Below are positions 5,145-16,398 of a stretch of DNA of 20,544 nucleotides, in pieces; positions within the stretch are counted from its first letter, which is position 1; the number at the start of each line of letters is the position of its first letter. Source of the stretch: a virus. A program made the position numbers and the translations under genes. The notes beneath the pieces are model-generated. The model was not told where the DNA came from. It did no database searches and saw only the letters and a list, made by a program, of their open reading frames with translations. The stretch is from the IMG/VR virus record IMGVR_UViG_3300044611_001711, positions 1-20,544 of that record. The stretch is one strand, 5' to 3'.

Positions 5145-5186
5145 AAACCTTTAGGATAGATCTTTTTATTCTAAAGGTTTTTTCTT
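5145..5186 (+). terminator. Rho-independent terminator after the lysozyme-like gene
   Basis: AAACCTTTAG (5145-5154) pairs perfectly with CTAAAGGTTT (5171-5180) across a 16-base loop and runs into TTTCTTTTATTTT. A weaker palindrome, CCTTTAAAGG followed by CTTTTT, lies just before it. The site sits between convergent genes. Confidence 0.75.
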
Positions 5187-5191
5187 TTATT

Positions 5192-5980
5192 TTATTTAAC
5201 ATATTTTTCCTTAAAACTATCTAAAAATATATTTGATAAACCATCGGAATATTTTAGTCCTGGGTGATCTCCATCTCTTGCTATTTCATAGAATGGGTCA
5301 GAGGACTCCTCTTTGTTTTTTGCATTCATAAAAATATCTACATCTTCTAAAAAAACAAAATTTTTAAAATCTAACTTAGAGTATACCTTAGCATCTGCGT
5401 TATTCCATGTTGACCAAATTAATTTAATTCCTGATGCTTCGCAGTATTCCTCTAAAAAGGTTATAGACTTTAGAACTTCAAGCCTTCCCAACTCTAAATG
5501 ACGTCTGTCATAATCAGAATCTATAATAAAATATCTTTTAACAAAATCAACTTTTCTAACAGAGTGTGGCAATAAACAAAATATGGCATCGGGCTTTCCA
5601 AATTCTTTACAGTATAACAATATGTTATAAATGATATTAGACGATACTCCGTTTAAAAACCCTAAAGAAAAATAATCGTCTAGGGTATACAAATCTTTCA
5701 TTTTTTCATAAAGTCTTCCTGACCAGTTTTCTTTATATGGCAGCCCTTCTCCAAAAGTAAATGAGCATCCAGCAAAAAGAATGTGGAATCCTTGATGATC
5801 TTTTACAAAATCACTAGACCTATGTCCATAATTATTTAGAGTGTAGTCCATATTATTTACAGCAGGATCATCACTAACCCTATCTGGAATGTAATCTTCT
5901 CCCCGAGTTTTTTTATACACACGACCTCGCCGCATATTGTAATCTGCTGTTGTAATATTTTGTGTAAAAAAATTAAACAT
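5192..5980 (-). CDS. SGNH/GDSL hydrolase-like protein
   Basis: A 262-residue protein. The segment NNYGHRSSDFV, then FHILFAGCSFTFGEGL (block I, nucleophile Ser73) and FSLGFLNGVSSN (block II Gly107 and a block III Asn) give the SGNH hydrolase pattern. RDGDHPG near residues 235-240 supplies the terminal Asp and His. Members cut ester bonds, for example acetyl groups on cell-wall or surface glycans; the substrate here is unknown. No signal peptide is seen. It is the last gene of the long minus-strand operon and ends the oxygenase/glycosyltransferase cassette. A paralogue lies at 14153-15031. Being in a glycan-handling cassette, it may act on the added sugar, but this is inference. Confidence 0.75.
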   Translation of the reverse strand: MFNFFTQNITTADYNMRRGRVYKKTRGEDYIPDRVSDDPAVNNMDYTLNNYGHRSSDFVKDHQGFHILFAGCSFTFGEGLPYKENWSGRLYEKMKDLYTLDDYFSLGFLNGVSSNIIYNILLYCKEFGKPDAIFCLLPHSVRKVDFVKRYFIIDSDYDRRHLELGRLEVLKSITFLEEYCEASGIKLIWSTWNNADAKVYSKLDFKNFVFLEDVDIFMNAKNKEESSDPFYEIARDGDHPGLKYSDGLSNIFLDSFKEKYVK

Positions 5981-5986
5981 TGATGT

Positions 5987-6550
5987 TTACCAATTTTCTA
6001 AATTCCATTGTGCCTTTGTCATTTTCCCTGTAATTACATCGATGTAACTTGGACCCTTTGTAAAATACCAGTGATCTGGCTCTGCATAATGAAAAAAGAT
6101 CATTGCAACATTTTGAGTTTCTGGGTTTGGAAAGTCTTCTCTCCAATGCATTTGCTCGTTTCCATAATAAGCCAATGCTTGGTTTGGGAATAGGGTATAT
6201 GGTGTATCTTCTACATATAAATCCCAAGGATCATTTTGATAAAGACACAGATCTAAGGTATAAGTGCATGCGTTATCATCTTTGTGTTTGTAAAGGCTTG
6301 CTTTCCCTTCATAGTGTGCAAATAGGGCATATGTTGGCATTAAGGTTTCACTGCTAAAGGCTTTCCTAGCAACATCAACTGTATCTTCAAAGATAGCCTT
6401 AAACTCTTCAGAGTATCCATCCCCTACACAATATCTTCCAAATCTTGGGTCATATGAAAAAGTTTTATAAGAAGATTTCATAGAATTTGTAAAACTATCA
6501 AACGCTTCCCTTTTTAAAACATTTTCAATTATTTTGGGCTCTTGAATCAT
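5987..6550 (-). CDS. 2OG-Fe(II) oxygenase, prolyl-4-hydroxylase-like (copy 1)
   Basis: A 187-residue protein starting at 6550 with Shine-Dalgarno GGAGATA. The double-stranded beta-helix signature is visible: LYKHKDDNACTYTLDLCL carries the HxD iron-binding pair (His89, Asp91), and YYGNEQMHWRED carries the distal His135 with Arg137. The remaining strands read PWDLYVED and NVAMIFFHYAEPDHWYF. Such enzymes use Fe(II), 2-oxoglutarate and oxygen to hydroxylate a substrate; prolyl-4-hydroxylases are the nearest familiar type. It is 187 residues with no extra domain. The paralogue at 7515-8084 shares the HKDDNACTY and EPDHWYF segments. The two flank a glycosyltransferase. The fold is well supported; proline as substrate is inferred. 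Confidence 0.8.
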   Translation of the reverse strand: MIQEPKIIENVLKREAFDSFTNSMKSSYKTFSYDPRFGRYCVGDGYSEEFKAIFEDTVDVARKAFSSETLMPTYALFAHYEGKASLYKHKDDNACTYTLDLCLYQNDPWDLYVEDTPYTLFPNQALAYYGNEQMHWREDFPNPETQNVAMIFFHYAEPDHWYFTKGPSYIDVITGKMTKAQWNLENW

Positions 6551-6584
6551 TTTATCTCCTATATCATACCTTTAGGTGCACATT

Positions 6585-7511
6585 TTAGTTTTTATATATT
6601 GGCTTAATGTAGTCTTTTGATTCAAAGTCAAGGCCCATTTCTTCCTGCAACGCTCTATACTCTTCCATATCATCTTGGAATCCATAAACACCTAAATCTT
6701 CCCCACGAAATAACTGACTAAGCCTAATTCTTGCAGCCTTATCTCTAATTCCCCAAAGTTGGTTGTCAACCCAGTGAAAATCTCTTTTCCCATTATCTCT
6801 GTCATAGTTGGTCCAAATTGCATTTACTGGTGGTGCAACAAGGTTTACACCCTTAACTGATAGCCTAAGTCCCAAACTGATCTCTTCTCCAAGGAAATAT
6901 AAATATGGGTCATAGATAGCCTTTGTAAATGCTTTAACTGATCCAAAAGCAAAATTTGCTGCAAATCCAAAAACTCGATCTCCATATTCAAGATCTTCAA
7001 TATCTTTCCATCTTAGGAGGTAAACACATTCTATGTCATCCCATACTGGAACTACCTTGTGCATAGTTTCGTTATCTAAATTAATCTTGTCTGTTCCAAT
7101 GCCATCTTCATCCCACTCTCTCAAAAATCCGTGTGGGTATTTAGTAAATATATATTCTTCTCCCCATTTTACAGAGCACCTTTCATATTCTTCTATGAGC
7201 ATTGTGTCCCAATTCTTTTTTGCTCTAGAGTGAGAGTCTGTGTGCAAGAAAAATCTATACTTATCAGACAGCAATGAGTTTGCTAAATGTCTTCCAGAGC
7301 AGGCTCCATCTGCAAGTCTATAGTCAATTTTTTGATATGACATCTGGCTTGCTGGAATAAAACTAAAATCAAATGTGCTTTCTGGGTCCTCGTGCGAAAC
7401 TAGAGAAAAAAACAACCTGTCCTTGTGCTCTGCATTTTCATAAAAACTTTTAACTGTATTTATTAAATCTGGATCTCTGTATGCTGCAAGACTAATAAAG
7501 ATTTTATCCAT
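6585..7511 (-). CDS. GlcNAc-transferase-like glycosyltransferase (Skp1-hydroxyproline GT60 type)
   Basis: A 308-residue protein starting at 7511 with Shine-Dalgarno GGGAGATAG. It opens IFISLAAYRDPDLINTVKSF, the typical first motif of the GlcNAc glycosyltransferase family that includes the UDP-GlcNAc:Skp1-hydroxyproline GlcNAc-transferase of Dictyostelium. It continues with CSGRHLANSLLSDKYRFFLH, then TDSH (residues 91-94), the DxH/DxD-like metal and sugar-nucleotide site, followed by WDTML. The second half has GFAANFAFGSVKAF, then FLGEEISLGLRLSVKG, the acceptor/catalytic EE motif of GT-A enzymes. The fold is a cytoplasmic GT-A enzyme. It sits exactly between two 2OG oxygenases and downstream, in the same operon, of a protein with about 67 Thr-Pro units. 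This strongly recalls hydroxylation followed by O-GlcNAc addition. Family call fairly sure; acceptor inferred. Confidence 0.78.
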   Translation of the reverse strand: MDKIFISLAAYRDPDLINTVKSFYENAEHKDRLFFSLVSHEDPESTFDFSFIPASQMSYQKIDYRLADGACSGRHLANSLLSDKYRFFLHTDSHSRAKKNWDTMLIEEYERCSVKWGEEYIFTKYPHGFLREWDEDGIGTDKINLDNETMHKVVPVWDDIECVYLLRWKDIEDLEYGDRVFGFAANFAFGSVKAFTKAIYDPYLYFLGEEISLGLRLSVKGVNLVAPPVNAIWTNYDRDNGKRDFHWVDNQLWGIRDKAARIRLSQLFRGEDLGVYGFQDDMEEYRALQEEMGLDFESKDYIKPIYKN

Positions 7512-7514
7512 GGT

Positions 7515-8084
7515 TTATTCTATCTCCCTTTTTGCACGAATATGACTATAAAGATAATGAGGTCCTTCTGTAAAATACCAATGATCTGGCTCTGTATAAA
7601 AGAAAAATGCATTAGCAACTAAGTTGTGTTCTGGATCAGGGAATTCTTCTCTCCAGTGCTCTTGATCGTTTCCATAAGAGATGACTGCATCATTTTCTTT
7701 TGGACTAAACTTTTCTCCCTCTACGTAAAAATCCCAAGGGGTTTTATGAAAAATAGTATAGTTAATATGGTATGTGCAAGCATTGTCATCCTTATGTTTC
7801 CATAATTTTGCCTTATCGCCTTCATAGATACTGATTAGGCACCAAGATGGAACCAATGTCTCTGATTCAAACTCTTCTCTTGCAAGAGGTAAAAGCATCT
7901 CGTGGAACCTCTTTAATGGCTCTATGTTTTCTTTATGGGTTCCGTCCCATATAGCCCACTGGTGTCTTCCAAAACTTTCATCAAATGTGGTCTTATCATT
8001 TACCCATAAAGACATTGCAAGATTTTGCAAATCTTTGTGATCTTGTGGTGGAAAGACATTTTCTAACAAATAAGGATTTTTCAT
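7515..8084 (-). CDS. 2OG-Fe(II) oxygenase, prolyl-4-hydroxylase-like (copy 2)
   Basis: A 189-residue paralogue of the protein at 5987-6550. Iron ligands are His97 and Asp99 in LWKHKDDNACTYHINYT and His143 in SYGNDQEHWREEF. The shared terminal motif is YTEPDHWYFTEGPHYL. The N-terminal 70 residues differ from copy 1 (FGRHQWAIWDGTH versus FGRYCVGDGY), so the two may act on different sites or substrates. Its ATG follows directly after the stop of the Cys-rich gene (TAAATG), and its own stop is three bases before the glycosyltransferase start, so the three are co-translated. No signal peptide is seen. Confidence 0.8.
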   Translation of the reverse strand: MKNPYLLENVFPPQDHKDLQNLAMSLWVNDKTTFDESFGRHQWAIWDGTHKENIEPLKRFHEMLLPLAREEFESETLVPSWCLISIYEGDKAKLWKHKDDNACTYHINYTIFHKTPWDFYVEGEKFSPKENDAVISYGNDQEHWREEFPDPEHNLVANAFFFYTEPDHWYFTEGPHYLYSHIRAKREIE

Positions 8085-8318
8085 TTACCATTTTCCTAAC
8101 GGACAAGTTGCTAACTCTAACGTTGTTTTTGCTTTCATAAAGCATCCACACTTTTTGCACTGTTTTGTTAATTTAATTAATTCTGGACAGGCTTTACATA
8201 CTTCATACCTTGCTAAAGCGACTTCATCTGAAGCCTTTGGAATTGAAGAATTTACAAGGTCCCAAGGCCTTGTTTCTCCTAAACTTTCTTTATACTTTGC
8301 CCAATTACTCTGTGACAC
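8085..8318 (-). CDS. Small Cys-rich (CxxC...CGCFM) putative metal-binding protein
   Basis: A 77-residue protein if started at GTG 8318 (VSQSNWAKYKESLGETRPWDL); a TTG at 8333 would add five residues. Neither has a clear Shine-Dalgarno and both overlap the upstream gene, so coupling is likely. The C-terminal half has CKACPE, then CKKCGCFMKAKTTLELATCP and a final GKW: paired CxxC motifs that should hold a zinc ion. A close relative at 15157-15357 shares KCGCFMK.K.TL..A.CP..KW. Both copies lie near an SGNH-like gene (this one at the head of the oxygenase cassette). It could be an adaptor or chaperone; function unknown. Confidence 0.7.
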   Translation of the reverse strand: MSQSNWAKYKESLGETRPWDLVNSSIPKASDEVALARYEVCKACPELIKLTKQCKKCGCFMKAKTTLELATCPLGKW

Positions 8319-8487
8319 TGTATGAGTCGCCAATTGCCAGTTGGTCTGGATTATCTGTAACGTCTACAAATGTTGGATTACTTGTATACAGAGCCCAAGT
8401 GCGCTCATCACACATAATGGTATCTGCTACACTACCGTCAATTATTACGGCTACTTTATAATTAGTTATAACTTGATTTTCTGTCAT
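8305..8487 (-). CDS. Small phage protein, 60 aa, unknown function
   Basis: Starts at 8487 behind a strong Shine-Dalgarno (GGAGGAATAAA). The 60-residue product reads VAVIIDGSVADTIMCDERTWALYTSNPTFVDVTD, a pattern of alternating hydrophobic strands with a central Cys-Asp-Glu-Arg turn. Its end overlaps the start of the Cys-rich gene. It lies directly after the (Thr-Pro)n protein in the operon. No family with a known role is recognised. Confidence 0.65.
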   Translation of the reverse strand: MTENQVITNYKVAVIIDGSVADTIMCDERTWALYTSNPTFVDVTDNPDQLAIGDSYSVTE

Positions 8488-8521
8488 TTTATTCCTCCTA
8501 TATATAGTTTATCATAAAAAG

Positions 8522-10510
8522 TTATGAGGCGCAACATGAATAATACCAGGTTCCAGAAGTATATGCATACCAGGATACAGTTCCACAAGCGCCATTGCTT
8601 ACTGACTGGTTCGATGGATTACTTACAACCCTAGATCCACTGTTTACCTGTGTTCCAGATACACACGTTGCATATGAAGATGCTAGGTCAGGTCCACGGG
8701 TTGTGTATGTTGTTCCTGGTGTAGGAGTTGGTGTAGGAGTCGGTGTCGGAGTAGGCGTAGGAGTTGGCGTAGGTGTTGGAGTTGGTGTCGGAGTTGGTGT
8801 CGGAGTTGGTGTCGGAGTTGGTGTTGGTGTAGGTGTAGGTGTTGGCGTAGGAGTTGGGGTTGGCGTTGGTGTTGTAACTTCATTCCAGGTTGCCTGTATT
8901 GATAGGTTTCCACTGCAATTTAATGAGGCTCCAGTTGGGTATCCACCAATAAATGTTCCATTACAATATACCATCCAACTACCAAGAGTATATCCAGACC
9001 TTGAAGCAGAAGAAGAAGGAATCACGTAGGAGCCATTGTGCGTAGTGTTTGCTGGCATTCCTGTTCCACCATTTGCATCGTAGGTTACATTGTATACTAC
9101 TGGAGTAGGCGTTGGTGTAGGTGTAGGTGTTGGAGTCGGTGTTGGTGTAGGTGTTGGTGTTGGAGTTGGTGTCGGAGTAGGTGTTGTAACTTCATTCCAG
9201 GTTGCCTGTATTAAAAGATTTCCACTGCAACTTAGAGATGCCCCATTAGGGTATCCACCAATAAAGGATGAACCACAAGTTACCATCCAACTTCCTTGAG
9301 TGTATCCAGATCTAGTTGGAGCAGTGTTTGTGATTACGTAAGATCCATTATGTGTTGTATTTGCTGGAACTCCAGTTCCGCCATTTGCGTCATATGTTAC
9401 AGAGTATGAACCTGGTGTTGGCGTTGGAGTTGGCGTAGGTGTTGGAGTTGGCGTTGGTGTTGGAGTAGGCGTTGGTGTTGGTGCTGAAGCGGTTGTAAAG
9501 GATCCTGTTGATGAAGCAGTTGCTCCAGTATAGTTTGCTCCAGCATAAAGTGTTACGGTAACGGAGTATAAAGTTCCTGCCTGAAGGCCAGACAGCAATA
9601 CTGGGAAGTTTGCAGTAGATGATGTTGGCTCATTAACTGCGGTAGCACCGCCGTTTGGAACAACCTTATATGATCCCCAAGTGCTTCCACCCCATGTAAT
9701 ATATGCTGCATTAGAAGTCCAAGTTTGGTTTGGCCCTGCACCATAAGCAGTAATTGATCCAATGTTTGGATATGGTGTTGGGTCAACTGGTGTCGGAGTA
9801 GGAGTTGGTGTTGGAGTTGGTGTAGGAGTAGGTGTTGGTGTTGGTGTAGGAGTTGGTGTAGGAGTAGGTGTTGGTGTTACAGAAGCATTTTCGTAAATGT
9901 CTCCAGATAAAGACCAGGTGTTGGTGTCAAGTTTAATTAGTGTTGCTTTAGAGAATTGACCGTCCAAAGACATTGTGTTATTTTTGCTTTTTACTGATAC
10001 TGAAACACTTTCTGGAGAGATTGTAGTTGATCCAGTTCCAAGTTGAATAATATCTACAGAGTATCCGACTGGTATAGCGGTTGTTGAATTTGCTGGGACC
10101 GTAATTGTAGTTGACGATGAAGAGTCTACAGTAATCACTCTTGAATTATCTGATGCTAACAATGTGTAACTTGAAAGTTTAGAACTAACAGTCTTATATC
10201 CAGAAATATTTTGCCAAACACTTCCATCAAAGTATTGTAATTGATCAACCCTGACAGAGTTTTCGTTTTCTGCGATAAAGCAAACAATACCACGAACTGG
10301 TGAACTTAGTGCTAAATCTCTATGTGCTGGGTTCATGAAGTTATTTACTCCAGCCCTTGCATTTACAACGTCGGTTGCTGTTACCAAATTATCAAACTGG
10401 TGTGCACCATTCCAGGTATAGTTTAGTGCTGTGTTAGCAGACCCAGATAAAGCATACCAAGTCCCATTTTGATAAATATATGCAGTTTTTCCAACATTGT
10501 TAATTGCCAT
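8522..10510 (-). CDS. Large modular virion adhesin with four (Thr-Pro)n linkers and InlB-type repeats
   Basis: A 662-residue protein starting at 10510 (TAATG overlap with the gene before it; Shine-Dalgarno GGAGATAA). In order: residues 1-210 are a fibre-type N-terminus (MAINNVGKTAYIYQNGTWY, then a beta-helical-looking part). A Thr-Pro linker covers 211-241. A fibronectin-III-like domain covers about 242-343 (ANFPVLLSGLQAGTLYSVTV). A Thr-Pro linker follows to about 366. An InlB B-type repeat follows (YDANGGTGVPANTTHNGSYV, closing IQATWNEV), then a third linker, a second InlB-like repeat (about 471-545) and a fourth, longest linker (to about 598). The C-terminus has 64 residues with five Cys, ending SGTWYYSCCAS. 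It should be an extended, multidomain receptor-binding or host-surface-binding protein. The two repeats are near copies, so duplication is clear. The rigid linkers are the most likely substrate of the downstream hydroxylase/glycosyltransferase cassette. Confidence 0.85.
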   Translation of the reverse strand: MAINNVGKTAYIYQNGTWYALSGSANTALNYTWNGAHQFDNLVTATDVVNARAGVNNFMNPAHRDLALSSPVRGIVCFIAENENSVRVDQLQYFDGSVWQNISGYKTVSSKLSSYTLLASDNSRVITVDSSSSTTITVPANSTTAIPVGYSVDIIQLGTGSTTISPESVSVSVKSKNNTMSLDGQFSKATLIKLDTNTWSLSGDIYENASVTPTPTPTPTPTPTPTPTPTPTPTPTPTPTPVDPTPYPNIGSITAYGAGPNQTWTSNAAYITWGGSTWGSYKVVPNGGATAVNEPTSSTANFPVLLSGLQAGTLYSVTVTLYAGANYTGATASSTGSFTTASAPTPTPTPTPTPTPTPTPTPTPTPGSYSVTYDANGGTGVPANTTHNGSYVITNTAPTRSGYTQGSWMVTCGSSFIGGYPNGASLSCSGNLLIQATWNEVTTPTPTPTPTPTPTPTPTPTPTPTPTPTPVVYNVTYDANGGTGMPANTTHNGSYVIPSSSASRSGYTLGSWMVYCNGTFIGGYPTGASLNCSGNLSIQATWNEVTTPTPTPTPTPTPTPTPTPTPTPTPTPTPTPTPTPTPTPTPTPTPTPTPTPTPGTTYTTRGPDLASSYATCVSGTQVNSGSRVVSNPSNQSVSNGACGTVSWYAYTSGTWYYSCCAS
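8718..9878 (-). repeat. Four (ACN-CCN)n tracts encoding (Thr-Pro)n
   Basis: Hexanucleotide tracts at about 8718-8875, 9104-9189, 9414-9485 and 9789-9878 encode roughly 26, 14, 12 and 15 Thr-Pro units. Third codon positions vary freely between units, so the peptide rather than the DNA repeat appears to be under selection. Tract length could still vary by slippage or recombination. Confidence 0.85.
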
Positions 10511-11071: not shown

Positions 11072-11656
11072 TTATACCACAGTAATCAATAAATGGACTG
11101 TTTTAGTTCCAGTTAAAGATCTCAAGGCACCCTCATGGAATTCAGAAGCATTAACAGTTATTGGAAGATTAATGATATCTGTGGTGTCAATAGGCAAAAT
11201 ATTAATTGATGAAGCGGTTGGCGTAGAACCAATGATTTGGCATTGAATGCTAAAGTTTAGTTCTGAAATATTTGTGACCTCTGTGGTAGAAGAAAGAATG
11301 TCAAAGATAGGGATGGTAATTGTTGCTAGTCCAGAAACAAAGTTTGTTATTTTATTTGTTGCATATATTGATGGGGTTAACTTAAGTATATGCTGCCAAA
11401 CTGGTCCTCCTGGCTCAGACTTATATTGATAAAGATATGAAAAGTCCTCACTACTATTTTGCAAGTTAATATATAAATCATTTACCTGCAGTGGAACGCT
11501 ATTTCCAATTACTGTGCTTAAACTGTTAGGATTGCCATTACCTGCAAAAATATAACTACCACGATCACCTTGTGCTCCAAGATCAACTGCTAAATCAATC
11601 TTATCTGGACCACCAATAATTGTAATTTCATCTGTAGATAATAATACCTCTGCCAT
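11072..11656 (-). CDS. Virion structural protein (beta-rich, fibre operon)
   Basis: A 194-residue protein whose ATG overlaps the previous stop (TAATG at 11656). Residues 1-45 read MAEVLLSTDEITIIGGPDKI, then GAQGDRGSYIFAGNGNPN with a remnant of collagen-like Gly-X-Y triplets. The middle (VNDLYINLQNSSEDFSYLYQ, then PVWQHILKL) is the short beta motif often found after collagen-like stretches in phage fibres. The C-terminal 120 residues are beta-strand rich with many Ser/Thr/Ile. Probably a fibre tip or a structural spacer. Specific function unknown. Confidence 0.65.
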   Translation of the reverse strand: MAEVLLSTDEITIIGGPDKIDLAVDLGAQGDRGSYIFAGNGNPNSLSTVIGNSVPLQVNDLYINLQNSSEDFSYLYQYKSEPGGPVWQHILKLTPSIYATNKITNFVSGLATITIPIFDILSSTTEVTNISELNFSIQCQIIGSTPTASSINILPIDTTDIINLPITVNASEFHEGALRSLTGTKTVHLLITVV

Positions 11657-12016: not shown

Positions 12017-12745
12017 TTATACCATGCTGACATATATAGATTTAAGAATTACTGAAGCGTCATAGTCAGTTCTAATTTGTGGAACTGCTCCATTACCCCA
12101 GATCTTCTGATTTTCTATAAAAACATGCTGTGTTACTGTTATTGGATATGTATGTTGATATTTTAAAGACCCAATAAATTGAGAGACTTCTAAATCGCTG
12201 TTTTGCGAGTATGTTCTTATCCAAACCTCAGTGTTGCTGCTATAGGTAGTTAGTTCAAAACTGTATGTTATGAATACTTGAGCACCCTCTTCAAGTCCCC
12301 TAAAATTAAAGGCTCTTGCGTGATCATTCCATAATGGGGTGCATCCTTTAGGGATATACTTTTCATTTGACAATCCATCAGATATTAAATATACCGTTGC
12401 CCAACCGTCATCTCCTTCAGATATACCAAGTTTAAATGGTTTTTCAACTTTGTTGTGATAGGATGCCCACCCTGCTTGCTGTCCTGAAGATGACAGAGAA
12501 CTTAGACCGTCTTTCCCTGCTGGTCCTTGTTGGCCCTTTGGTCCCGATTTTCCTTCTGGTCCTTTAGGTCCTTCTTTTCCATCTTTTCCATCTCTACCCG
12601 CTGGGCCCTGTGGCCCTACTGGTCCAGGGACTGGAAGAAATGACAAAACGTTGTCTTGTGTAAATGATGACTGGCTTTGTTCTACTTGCTCAGCATAAGA
12701 TGTTTTTTTGGGGGCAGGAAAGTCCATAGATTTAGAAACAGCCAT
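12017..12745 (-). CDS. Collagen-like tail fibre protein
   Basis: A 242-residue protein. Residues 1-40 are polar, with Lys/Ser/Gln. Residues 41-80 form about 13 Gly-X-Y triplets (GPVGPQGPAGRDGKDGKEGP and on), enough for a short collagen triple helix, and therefore a trimer. Residues 95-242 are a globular beta domain (WATVYLISDGLSNEKYIP, VFITYSFELTTYSSNTEVWI, VSQFIGSLKYQH). Prolines lie almost all in the X position of the triplets, where classical collagen prolyl-4-hydroxylase does not act. It is the third gene of the long operon. Likely a fibre with a collagen shaft and a C-terminal binding head. Confidence 0.8.
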   Translation of the reverse strand: MAVSKSMDFPAPKKTSYAEQVEQSQSSFTQDNVLSFLPVPGPVGPQGPAGRDGKDGKEGPKGPEGKSGPKGQQGPAGKDGLSSLSSSGQQAGWASYHNKVEKPFKLGISEGDDGWATVYLISDGLSNEKYIPKGCTPLWNDHARAFNFRGLEEGAQVFITYSFELTTYSSNTEVWIRTYSQNSDLEVSQFIGSLKYQHTYPITVTQHVFIENQKIWGNGAVPQIRTDYDASVILKSIYVSMV

Positions 12746-12765: not shown

Positions 12766-13167
12766 TTATACTTGAATGTTTACATCAATAGATGTAATGA
12801 TTCCATTTACAATATTAAAAGTTTGATTTCCAATAGTAAAGGATGAGTTAACACCAATTGGTAGTTCAGCATCTGCACCCTTTGATGCAAGTAAATCCCA
12901 AATAAATCCTTCTGATGGTGTGTCTCCAACATTTCCACCATTTGAGTTCTTGCGATACCAAAGTTGTCCGTCAAATGTTACAACATCTCCAACTGCATAT
13001 CCTGCACCTGGGTTGTATTCACCATTGTAAGACCAAAGTGCATCTGCACCGTTGGTTCCATTATTTCCTGCTAGTCCCTGCGGACCTGTGTTGCCAGTGT
13101 CACCTTTAGGACCTTGTGGTCCAACTACTGCCACTCCAGGCATTGGAACAATCTTAATAACTGCCAT
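12766..13167 (-). CDS. Collagen-like fibre with carbohydrate-binding-like domain
   Basis: A 133-residue protein whose start overlaps the stop of the gene before it (TAATG at 13167). Residues 16-42 form nine Gly-X-Y triplets (GPQGPKGDTGNTGPQGLAG). Residues 45-92 (WSYNGEYNPGAGYAVGDVV, FDGQLWYRKNS, then WDLL) match the W...Y..G..Y..GD.V...G..Y pattern of chitin/carbohydrate-binding type 5/12 modules seen on many phage fibres. A short beta tail follows (SFTIGNQTFNIVNGIITSID). Probably a small trimeric fibre that touches host surface sugars. Confidence 0.78.
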   Translation of the reverse strand: MAVIKIVPMPGVAVVGPQGPKGDTGNTGPQGLAGNNGTNGADALWSYNGEYNPGAGYAVGDVVTFDGQLWYRKNSNGGNVGDTPSEGFIWDLLASKGADAELPIGVNSSFTIGNQTFNIVNGIITSIDVNIQV

Positions 13168-14152: not shown

Positions 14153-15031
14153 ATGAAACGCTATGATCCTTTACTTGGTAGAAACAACGAAGGTCTCATA
14201 TCCTTAATTCAAACAGACGTAATCGGTAAGGTTTTAGAATATAACACAACCTATGACCAGGTTTGCCAAGACTGTATCCATCCTGAATGCTTTGAACTTT
14301 ATGGAGATAAGAGAGACACCACGTATGACTTTTATGAAAACCACCCTATATCTTTTAAAATAAATAATCACGGATTTAGGTCTGATGATTTTTCTAAAGA
14401 ATCTGCTAAAAATAATTTTGTATATTTTGGCTGCTCAAATACTTTTGGCCTAGGGGTTCCCGTAGAGGGTGTTTGGTCTCATCAATTAAATAGATCTTTA
14501 GGCGGTGAGCAACACCTTAATGTAGGGACACGTGGAGGAAATATTGAAACTATTACTTATAACTTCTTTAAGTTTATAGAAAAATTTGGAAACCCTAAAG
14601 GGGTTTTTATATACTTTCCCAACTTAACCAGACAGTTAAAGTTTTATGGGCTAAATAAAGATAAGCATATAAGCATGACATATATAAACCAACCCGCTAC
14701 CGTTGACGAATTGATATTTAGATCTGCCCTGCTAATTAAGTCAATCGAGTTATACTGTGAATCAAATAAAATACCTTTGGTCTATTCGTCTTGGGATCCA
14801 CAAATGCTCAGTGCCGTTAGCAAATTAGTAAAAGAAGGCATTTTGAGTAAAAAATATTTTGTAGATAGAATGGATTTATCCATACTTGAAAAAGAAAATG
14901 AACAAATACCTGACGAGTTATTAAACGGAAAATATTGGAACAATTCAAGAGACGGCCACGTCCCAGTTTCGGATCACTGGCTTACGCATCAGATCCTTAA
15001 GGCTAAGTTCAAAAATACATATGGCCTTTAA
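14153..15031 (+). CDS. SGNH/GDSL hydrolase-like protein (second copy)
   Basis: A 292-residue protein starting at ATG 14153, eleven bases after GGGGAG. Residues 70-100 read KINNHGFRSDDF, then NFVYFGCSNTFGLGVP with nucleophile Ser95. LNVGTRGGN (122-130) gives the block II Gly and block III Asn. SRDGHVPVSDHW near residue 266 gives the terminal Asp and His, one residue shorter than the DGDH of the paralogue at 5192-5980. The N-terminus has CQDCIHPEC (residues 38-46), a Cys cluster absent from the paralogue. Likely an esterase of unknown substrate. It is followed by a CGCFM Cys-rich gene, as this family is also near one in the minus-strand cassette. Confidence 0.75.
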   Translation: MKRYDPLLGRNNEGLISLIQTDVIGKVLEYNTTYDQVCQDCIHPECFELYGDKRDTTYDFYENHPISFKINNHGFRSDDFSKESAKNNFVYFGCSNTFGLGVPVEGVWSHQLNRSLGGEQHLNVGTRGGNIETITYNFFKFIEKFGNPKGVFIYFPNLTRQLKFYGLNKDKHISMTYINQPATVDELIFRSALLIKSIELYCESNKIPLVYSSWDPQMLSAVSKLVKEGILSKKYFVDRMDLSILEKENEQIPDELLNGKYWNNSRDGHVPVSDHWLTHQILKAKFKNTYGL

Positions 15032-15035
15032 TTCG

Positions 15036-15140
15036 ACGGGATATAAGGCGTCGCCGAAATAGAGGCTTTCCAAACCCCCATAAAGACAATCTATGGGACA
15101 AAGCCCCAAACTGTCTGATAGGGGCCTTTAAACCTTTTTT
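15036..15140 (+). terminator. Structured 3' region with alternative hairpins (terminator or regulatory RNA)
   Basis: CGACG...CGTCG forms a first stem. GGCTTT (15064-15069) pairs with AAAGCC (15100-15105) around an inner stem CCCATA/TATGGG (15077-15097). The last bases of that outer arm also belong to a competing stem GCCCC (15103-15107)/GGGGC (15121-15125), followed by CTTTAAACCTTTTTT. Loop AGACA (15084-15088) is complementary to loop TGTCT (15112-15116). It ends the SGNH-like transcript. Confidence 0.5.
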
Positions 15141-15144
15141 AGGC

Positions 15145-15156
15145 TATAATTAGAGT
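15145..15156 (+). promoter_or_regulatory. Leaderless promoter of the CGCFM gene
   Basis: TATAAT (15145-15150) is followed by exactly six bases and then ATG at 15157. There is no Shine-Dalgarno. The six-base spacing equals that at 3233 and 16578. Confidence 0.55.
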
Positions 15157-15357
15157 ATGCCAGATGATGTCAAATTTACAGATTTGTTTGATCCGAGTCA
15201 ACCACGAAGTGACAAAGATCTGATAGAATATAGGTTAGGCATTTGCAATGGTTGTGAATGGTTTAATAAGCGTTTAGTCAAGTGTAGGAAATGCGGATGT
15301 TTTATGAAGTTAAAATCTACGCTTAAACAGGCTAAATGCCCTATAGAGAAATGGTGA
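15157..15357 (+). CDS. Small Cys-rich (CxxC...CGCFM) putative metal-binding protein (second copy)
   Basis: A 66-residue protein. CNGCEW and CRKCGCFMKLKSTLKQAKCP...KW match the protein at 8085-8318 along the whole Cys-rich half, and a DLxxxSxP..D segment in the N-terminal half is also shared. The four CxxC-type Cys probably bind zinc. It has a leaderless promoter. The next gene begins at its stop. In both places this family occurs close to an SGNH-like gene, so a shared role in surface modification or fibre assembly is possible but unproven. Confidence 0.7.
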   Translation: MPDDVKFTDLFDPSQPRSDKDLIEYRLGICNGCEWFNKRLVKCRKCGCFMKLKSTLKQAKCPIEKW

Positions 15358-15530: not shown

Positions 15531-15694
15531 GTGATTTTAAAGATCCTTTTTGGCTTGAAGATGCATATGTCCATCAGAATATGTCCCCTGCGGAAATAGC
15601 CAAATTGTGTAAAACCTCCGAATACGAAGTAAAATATCATTTGGAGATGTATGGTATTTCTAAAGAAGACTTGAGCGAAAACTTTTTTAAGTAA
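15527..15694 (+). CDS. Small protein with helix-turn-helix-like segment, 55 aa
   Basis: Joined at both ends to neighbours: ATGA overlap at 15527 and TAATG overlap with the methyltransferase at 15694. The product begins MSDFKDPFWLEDAYVHQ, then NMSPAEIAKLCKTSEYEVKY and HLEMYGISKEDL. The segment SPAEIAKLCKTSEYEVKYHL fits a helix-turn-helix of the kind used by small phage regulators. It has no other domain and is directly in front of a DNA methyltransferase, so it could regulate that gene or act as a DNA-recognition partner. Both are inference. Confidence 0.6.
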   Translation: MSDFKDPFWLEDAYVHQNMSPAEIAKLCKTSEYEVKYHLEMYGISKEDLSENFFK

Positions 15695-16398
15695 TGGATG
15701 TAGAGTTTTTCTGCAATGACGCTAGAACTAAATTTCTACAGCCAAACAGTGTAGATATGTTCTTGTGTCATCCACCATATATCACAACTGATAAACAGGT
15801 ATATGGCGGAGACGCAAATAGGCAAATCCAGAATCAGGAATATGATGATTACATCAAAGGTTATATAGAATCTATTAAGCATATTGAGTATGCGTTAAAG
15901 GACACTGGATCTGCCCTCGTAATTTTGAAAAACCATAATTCCTCGTTTGATGTTATTTCAAAAATCAAAACCGAGACAAATTTAATTATTACAAAAACCT
16001 TAATTTGGGATTATTCAGATAGTAAGATTTTTGAAAATGTTAAAGAAAGAACTGGCGATGAATTTGCACTTATCCTGCTATTGCACAAACAGATAAACGT
16101 CCCTAGATACGAAAAAATGAGAAACTTTATTATTAAGGCTCATTGGGATACTCAAGAAGAAGTTATTCAAAACCTTCAAGAATACCAAGATCGTGGCTAT
16201 GTATGGGATTGCTTTACTGAGAAACTTGCTGAGATATTAATTGATAACTATTCGTTACCTGGTCAAGTTGTGGCAGATATCTTTGGAGGAACTGGCACTA
16301 CCGCAAAAGTTGCTCTGCGTATGGGTCGTAAAACCATTTACAATGATGCTTCGCATCAACAGTATCTTATTGCCAAGAAGAGAGTCTTAGATGCTTAG
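15694..16398 (+). CDS. Orphan DNA methyltransferase, N4/N6 beta-class
   Basis: A 234-residue protein. Near the N-terminus FLCHPPYI (His26-Pro-Pro-Tyr29) is motif IV, with His in place of the usual Asp or Ser. A QNQEYDDYI segment follows. The C-terminal 45 residues hold motif I, VVADIFGGTGTTAKVALRMG followed by RKTIYNDAS, the S-adenosylmethionine site. Motif IV before motif I is the beta-class order for N6-adenine or N4-cytosine methylation. No restriction gene is adjacent, so it is probably an orphan phage enzyme for protecting DNA from host restriction. It is the last gene of the plus group and overlaps the convergent gene by four bases. Confidence 0.85.
   Translation: MDVEFFCNDARTKFLQPNSVDMFLCHPPYITTDKQVYGGDANRQIQNQEYDDYIKGYIESIKHIEYALKDTGSALVILKNHNSSFDVISKIKTETNLIITKTLIWDYSDSKIFENVKERTGDEFALILLLHKQINVPRYEKMRNFIIKAHWDTQEEVIQNLQEYQDRGYVWDCFTEKLAEILIDNYSLPGQVVADIFGGTGTTAKVALRMGRKTIYNDASHQQYLIAKKRVLDA

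Follow-up and report, generated by a model that had tools for sequence, protein, structure and literature searches.

A candidate proline-hydroxylation and glycosylation cassette for a Thr-Pro-rich tail fibre, with modular counterparts in freshwater phages

The fibre and the enzymes encoded beside it

The IMG/VR virus record IMGVR_UViG_3300044611_001711 is a genome fragment that was analysed over positions 1 to 20,544 (hereafter the window). Its minus strand carries a tail region ending in a fibre-like protein of 662 amino acids, followed by a cassette of genes that, in our judgement, probably hydroxylates proline in the Thr-Pro (TP) tracts of this same fibre and then glycosylates these tracts, and that is modular in related phages. 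Reading from the fibre gene, the order is a 60-amino-acid open reading frame (ORF), a zinc-ribbon protein, a 2-oxoglutarate (2OG)-Fe(II) oxygenase (OxB), a glycosyltransferase, a second oxygenase (OxA) and an SGNH-like protein (Table 1). The sequence-only reading that drew attention to this locus had described a fibre with about 67 Thr-Pro units and two oxygenases flanking a glycosyltransferase with a TDSH motif, and all of these ORFs were found at the positions given there. The glycosyltransferase gene starts 3 bp after the end of the OxB gene and the gene spacing is compatible with a single operon; promoter-like sites were not more frequent than in shuffled sequence.

The fibre contains 67 TP dipeptides, 66 of them within four runs of 15, 11, 14 and 26 units, which are interrupted by globular modules, two of these being List_Bact_rpt (PF09479) repeats. 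The codons of the runs are mixed (ACA, ACT, ACG and ACC for Thr; CCA, CCT and CCG for Pro), so that there is no clean DNA hexamer and selection on the peptide is likely. DNA slippage as the sole origin of the runs was, therefore, rejected, although some imperfect periodicity remains, TRF still detecting imperfect periods of 6–36 bases.

The glycosyltransferase belongs, by profile, to PF11397 (“GlcNAc”; score 111 bits, cut-off 21 bits, E = 1.1e-31), the family to which the Skp1 hydroxyproline N-acetylglucosamine (GlcNAc)-transferase belongs. In its TDSH motif Asp92 and His94 are invariant and Ser93 is nearly so among 22 relatives, in agreement with a metal-binding DXD/DXH motif. Its AlphaFold model (pLDDT 88) matches GT-A folds, the closest being polypeptide N-acetylgalactosamine (GalNAc)-transferases, with GlfT2 and KfiA scoring almost as high; a search of solved structures with the GT60 profile yielded no significant match. 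The proposed assignment to the Skp1-GlcNAc/GT60 type, rather than to a lipid or polysaccharide family, is thus upheld by the profile match and by the best fold matches. Judged by family, the sugar transferred is most likely an alpha-N-acetylhexosamine such as GlcNAc.

Both oxygenases contain HKDDN...H, with H97, D99 and H143 invariant among 80 relatives, and the model of OxB (pLDDT 94.8) is a double-stranded beta-helix oxygenase with the iron triad HxD...H. By fold and motif, OxA and OxB are, as had been suggested, predicted to be 2OG-Fe(II) oxygenases. Arg145, at +2 from the distal His, is also invariant as read from the alignment. OxA does not adjoin the glycosyltransferase in some 97%-identical relatives. 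Both oxygenases match the phage families phrog_2954 and phrog_3531, which are named “ferrochelatase”; members of these families look like HxD...H 2OG-Fe(II) oxygenases and the name looks wrong.

Table 1. Features of the fibre–cassette region (positions in the window).
Feature	Position	Strand	Remarks
Tail-fibre-like protein, 662 amino acids, proposed substrate	8522..10510	-	Four Thr-Pro runs; phrog_8780 minor tail, E=1e-13
(TP)15 run	9788..9877	-	
(TP)11 run	9413..9478	-	
(TP)14 run	9101..9184	-	
(TP)26 run	8717..8872	-	
60-amino-acid ORF between fibre and zinc ribbon	8305..8487	-	Related short ORFs at the same position in some relatives
Zinc-ribbon protein, DUF6171-like (sub-threshold)	8085..8333	-	
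OxB, 2OG-Fe(II) oxygenase, proposed prolyl hydroxylase	7515..8084	-	Motif, model, slot swap with PF13640 prolyl 4-hydroxylase-like enzyme
PF11397/GT60-type glycosyltransferase	6585..7511	-	TDSH motif
OxA, second oxygenase	5987..6550	-	43% identical to OxB
SGNH/GDSL-like protein	5192..5980	-	Recurs in cassettes, 20/173 loci
Stem-loop, 16 pairs and T tail, likely terminator	5145..5180		Past the last cassette gene, before a convergent lysozyme-like gene

Co-variation of enzymes and repeat type in related loci

IMG/VR relatives of the glycosyltransferase and of both oxygenases formed the first sample, and their loci share a layout of a collagen-like gene, two tail proteins, a repeat fibre, a zinc ribbon, one or more oxygenases, variable sugar genes and a lysozyme-like gene. 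Because these loci had been found through the enzymes themselves, we resampled as a control with enzyme-independent anchors, i.e., the tail protein at 11072–11656 (in two alignments) and the lysozyme-like protein. A run was defined, before this anchor sampling, as at least four alternating T/A/S/V-Pro units. In total, 173 non-redundant complete intervals were obtained, 104 with any oxygenase (74 with the OxA/OxB, or Ox, family) and 69 without; the anchor-only subset comprised 133.

An alternating (T/A/S/V)P run is present in 73 of the 74 Ox-family loci, the 74th having VTP repeats, and in only 2 of the 69 loci without an oxygenase. The anchor-only subset divides into 48 loci with run and oxygenase, 2 with a run only, 16 with an oxygenase only and 67 with neither. 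Phylogenetically independent pairs on the tree of the anchor protein agree with this: for run and Ox family, 14.6 pairs changed in the same direction and none in the opposite one (median p = 6e-5), and for run and any oxygenase the figures were 9.7 and 0.1 (p = 0.002), with p = 0.001 and p = 0.016, respectively, in the anchor-only subset. Glycosyltransferase-like genes occur in 84 of the 104 oxygenase loci vs. 7 of the 69 others (pair test with Ox, p = 0.001), i.e., oxygenase and transferase genes are gained and lost jointly. This co-variation agrees with the expectation that oxygenases, glycosyltransferase and Pro-rich repeats co-occur in related phages.

The modules are also exchanged. In the sister loci L004–L009 the order is zinc ribbon, PF13640 oxygenase and GT60; a prolyl 4-hydroxylase (P4H)-like gene occupies exactly the OxB slot and the glycosyltransferase is 78% identical to that of the window. 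The profile of this phage PF13640 group ranks solved prolyl 4-hydroxylases first (E = 9e-12), which, with the PF13640 match, places the sister-locus enzyme among the P4Hs by profile, and a PF13640 oxygenase lies 5' of OxA in many loci. In other loci GT60 is replaced by a protein O-fucosyltransferase-like family (POFUT2, E = 3e-4; PF10250 sub-threshold in 13 of 24), which is accompanied by a GDP-mannose-3,5-epimerase gene in all 37 loci and by GT60 in one; the epimerase matches the solved enzyme at 2e-91. Carbamoyltransferase and sulfotransferase-like genes are also present in related cassettes. The labels FT9, FT24, GT16 and c19 that we used denote clusters, FT24 and c19 being based on HxRRG-type motifs read by eye. 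In 85 of the 104 oxygenase loci the zinc-ribbon gene lies immediately 5' of the first oxygenase gene. The zinc ribbon is fused to GT60 in two loci that have TP fibres and no oxygenase (L342, 7607–8791; L284, 11380–12579), a fusion which ties it to glycosylation; it is possibly a recruitment module, and the SGNH-like protein possibly a glycan acyl-modifying enzyme.

In the mechanism that we propose, OxB, and probably also OxA, would hydroxylate proline of the Thr-Pro tracts with Fe(II), O2 and 2-oxoglutarate during or after translation, and the GT60-type enzyme would then attach a sugar to the hydroxyproline so formed and possibly also to threonine of the tract. Recruitment of the enzymes may fall to the zinc-ribbon protein, and the downstream genes would vary the glycan, with an SGNH-like protein here and a GDP-sugar epimerase, carbamoyltransferase or sulfotransferase-like protein in relatives. 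Since the repeat type is exchanged in relatives together with the oxygenase and the transferase, the fibre surface would be diversified. Gene content, families, the glycosyltransferase motif, the modelled OxB fold and the co-variation with the repeat are well supported; we infer that the fibre is the substrate, proline the hydroxylated residue and hydroxyproline the acceptor, and that the phage benefits from the modification. The benefits suggested earlier, i.e., stiffer linkers or a shield against proteases or host defence, are conceivable. The earlier interpretation is thus supported in part, by the GT60 type, the co-variation and the replacement of OxB by a P4H-like gene beside a closely similar glycosyltransferase, but not with respect to the P4H identity of the oxygenases or to hydroxyproline as established acceptor.

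Several observations weigh against this proposal. OxA and OxB do not match the curated P4H (PF13640-type) profile or sequence, and the fold of OxB fits prolyl hydroxylases and AlkB-like enzymes alike: IDO, AlkB, PHD2 and P4H are matched at similar scores (E ~2e-7), the best viral match being a cyanophage “ferrochelatase”. Compared profile to profile, they matched the phage P4H-like group with a Prob of only 0.5% (E = 0.12), and a search of solved structures with the Ox profile gave no significant match. The weak Pfam matches of the family are to the AlkB-type PF13532 (12 of 80 relatives, best E = 0.002) and, once, to PF05118. Binding of 2OG usually involves a Lys or Arg approximately 10 residues past the distal His, and no such conserved residue is present in the alignment of the 80 relatives. 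With respect to the co-variation, the anchor samples comprise the best-scoring 80 loci per scan and are not random draws, and a looser Pro-repeat criterion dilutes the association (55 and 13 loci vs. 9 and 56 in the anchor-only subset, pair-test p ~0.03). A P4H-like enzyme accompanies some Phe-Pro tracts and is absent beside others. GT60 by itself showed no association with the oxygenase in the pair test, because other glycosyltransferase families occupy its slot.

The acceptor residue and alternative substrates

Hydroxyproline, the sugar acceptor of the original claim, is a candidate only. GT60 genes without an oxygenase occur beside Thr/Ser-rich, mucin-like fibres (L185, L257, L353, L358) and, in the two fusion loci mentioned above, beside TP fibres, so that hydroxylation cannot be assumed to be a prerequisite of glycosylation. 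The pp-alpha-GlcNAc transferase of T. cruzi, also a GT60 enzyme, puts GlcNAc on Thr (PMC3769586); Skp1 Gnt1, which shares this family with the T. cruzi enzyme, is a hydroxyproline GlcNAc-transferase and requires hydroxylated proline (PMC6939170). These data, together with the Thr/Ser GalNAc-transferases as best fold matches of the glycosyltransferase model, speak for a mucin-like alternative, in which GT60 glycosylates Thr directly, while proline hydroxylation modifies the same fibre independently and shapes or stabilises the tract. We regard this as the less likely, though not a remote, alternative. In the GT60 tree, in which several branches are long and the deep order is unsure, all members of the clade of the window are paired with an oxygenase and the oxygenase-less members fall in other clades; the nearest relatives of the window enzyme adjoin OxB or a P4H-like enzyme, and both Skp1 and the GT60–P4H pairing in SAR86 (see below) point to hydroxyproline. 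As this clade is exclusively oxygenase-paired and known GT60 enzymes use hydroxyproline or Thr, hydroxyproline is favoured by these sequence relationships as the acceptor for the window enzyme, with threonine as the less likely one. In the loci with Thr-rich fibres a radical SAM/SPASM protein adjoins GT60 (L353, 8612–9613, and relatives).

It is considerably less probable that the cassette represents hypervariable cargo of the tail region that acts on host surface glycans or on free amino acids or sugars, or prevents superinfection. Glycosyltransferases in the hypervariable tail regions of pelagimyophages have been interpreted in this way (PMC7029224), and the GT8-like, epimerase and SGNH genes could serve polysaccharides; however, repeat type, oxygenase and transferase shift jointly over the tree, and the GT60 and O-fucosyltransferase-like families resemble protein-modifying transferases.

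Modification of the two collagen-like tail proteins encoded in the same region (12017–12745 and 12766–13167), with an incidental link to the TP fibre, is very improbable even though collagen is the classic substrate of prolyl hydroxylases: collagen-like genes are common both with (95 of 104 loci) and without (58 of 69) an oxygenase and are thus not the correlate, whereas the X-Pro repeat is predictive. Collagen as the driver of oxygenase presence was, therefore, rejected. The shorter of these two proteins has a CBM_5_12-like stretch, which scores below the cut-off. DNA hypermodification, with the oxygenases hydroxylating a base that the glycosyltransferase then glycosylates, is equally improbable, since the cassette is linked to the fibre gene and repeat type and not to replication genes, despite the weak AlkB-type matches, AlkB among the fold neighbours of OxB and a GT60 gene a few genes from the DNA polymerase, adjoining a carbamoyltransferase gene, in phage XacN1.

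Known systems and distribution

The proposed cassette, in which decoration of the tracts follows their hydroxylation, would resemble in its action the Skp1 and extensin pathways, as far as its chemistry can be deduced. The Skp1 system of Dictyostelium and Toxoplasma (PhyA and Gnt1) likewise employs a 2OG oxygenase and a PF11397/GT60 transferase in sequence, and coupling of an oxygenase gene with GT60 is seen in the window, in L004–L009 and in all 11 SAR86-type loci. It differs in that a single proline of a ubiquitin-ligase subunit is modified, while the phage target would be a many-site repetitive fibre, and in that the window oxygenases are not P4H-profile members. The T. cruzi mucin transferases share the GT60 family, and their Thr-rich repeat substrates resemble the fibres of L185, L257, L353 and L358, but they act on Thr (PMC3769586), with no oxygenase partner described in that system. 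Extensins and arabinogalactan proteins of plants and algae contain repetitive Pro tracts that are hydroxylated and then glycosylated (PMC8724618), albeit as secreted wall proteins and by other transferase families with other sugars. For Mimivirus L230, biochemical work showed that a viral repeat protein is first hydroxylated and then glycosylated by a virus-encoded enzyme (PMC9614988); this concerns Lys of Gly-X-Y collagen, a single bifunctional lysyl hydroxylase-glucosyltransferase and a eukaryotic giant virus. The 2OG-Fe(II) oxygenases of cyanophages (phrog_2954 “ferrochelatase”, phrog_61) are related to the cassette oxygenases in both sequence and fold, and phage enzymes of this kind have been noted to resemble EGLN3 (PMC12774648); the literature searched contained no substrate or paired glycosyltransferase for them. 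For phage hydroxyproline and tail-fibre glycosylation, the open-access PMC literature yielded only a paper on E. coli collagen-like prophage proteins, and no account of such a fibre decoration in any phage was found in the literature searched.

The related phages that carry the cassette are freshwater phages. Of 24 large related contigs, 14 carry WhiB genes, which are typical of Actinomycetota and of the phages infecting them; this suggests actinobacterial hosts. Outside this group, one genome-collection scan revealed 31 bacterial assembly loci with relatives of the glycosyltransferase. In the SAR86-type loci (L410–L417, L419, L431 and L435) a P4H-signature (PF13640) gene lies directly beside, and divergent from, the PF11397 gene in 11 of 11 cases (Pfam-confirmed for L410), and this pair may correspond, in prokaryotes, to the two Skp1 enzymes. 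The Magnetococcales loci contain no P4H-signature neighbour detectable with the profiles used here. Annotated phage genomes yielded no close relatives; three jumbo-phage records had distant GT60s (26% identity), and cyanophages gave weak oxygenase matches. The jumbo phages XacN1 and RAS14 (L252, L251) carry PF11397 genes, the RAS14 copy being confirmed; the XacN1 gene adjoins that of a carbamoyltransferase, a context perhaps unrelated to fibres.

Tentatively, and with rather less confidence than for the window itself, we suggest that actinobacterial phages carry extensin- or mucin-like fibres and exchange matched modules of repeat, prolyl hydroxylase and glycosyltransferase (GT60, or O-fucosyltransferase-like with GDP-mannose-3,5-epimerase), with a related pair in SAR86, and that hydroxyproline-linked glycosylation exists in prokaryotic viruses. 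If so, phages would perform a usually eukaryotic-type modification (hydroxyproline- or mucin-type O-glycosylation) on a host-facing part of the virion, a plant- or protist-like decoration of fibre repeats. The loci would amount to a naturally assembled collection of substrates with their matching enzymes, including compact bacterial-style enzymes for glycosylated Pro-rich polymers. Functions could also be predicted for phage oxygenase families now labelled “ferrochelatase”, and the SAR86 hydroxylase–GT60 pair would bear on the origin of the Skp1 pathway.

Some further observations concern neighbouring genes and loci. In four loci (L191, L199, L217 and L248) approximately six consecutive PF13640-like oxygenase genes lie beside fibres with Phe-Phe-Pro tracts, and no glycosyltransferase was recognised. 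On the plus strand of the window, at 14153–15357, a second SGNH-like gene is followed by a second zinc-ribbon gene, echoing the pair in the cassette. At 15694–16398 lies a DNA-methyltransferase-like gene, whose matches to adenine methyltransferases, CcrM among them, are sub-threshold.

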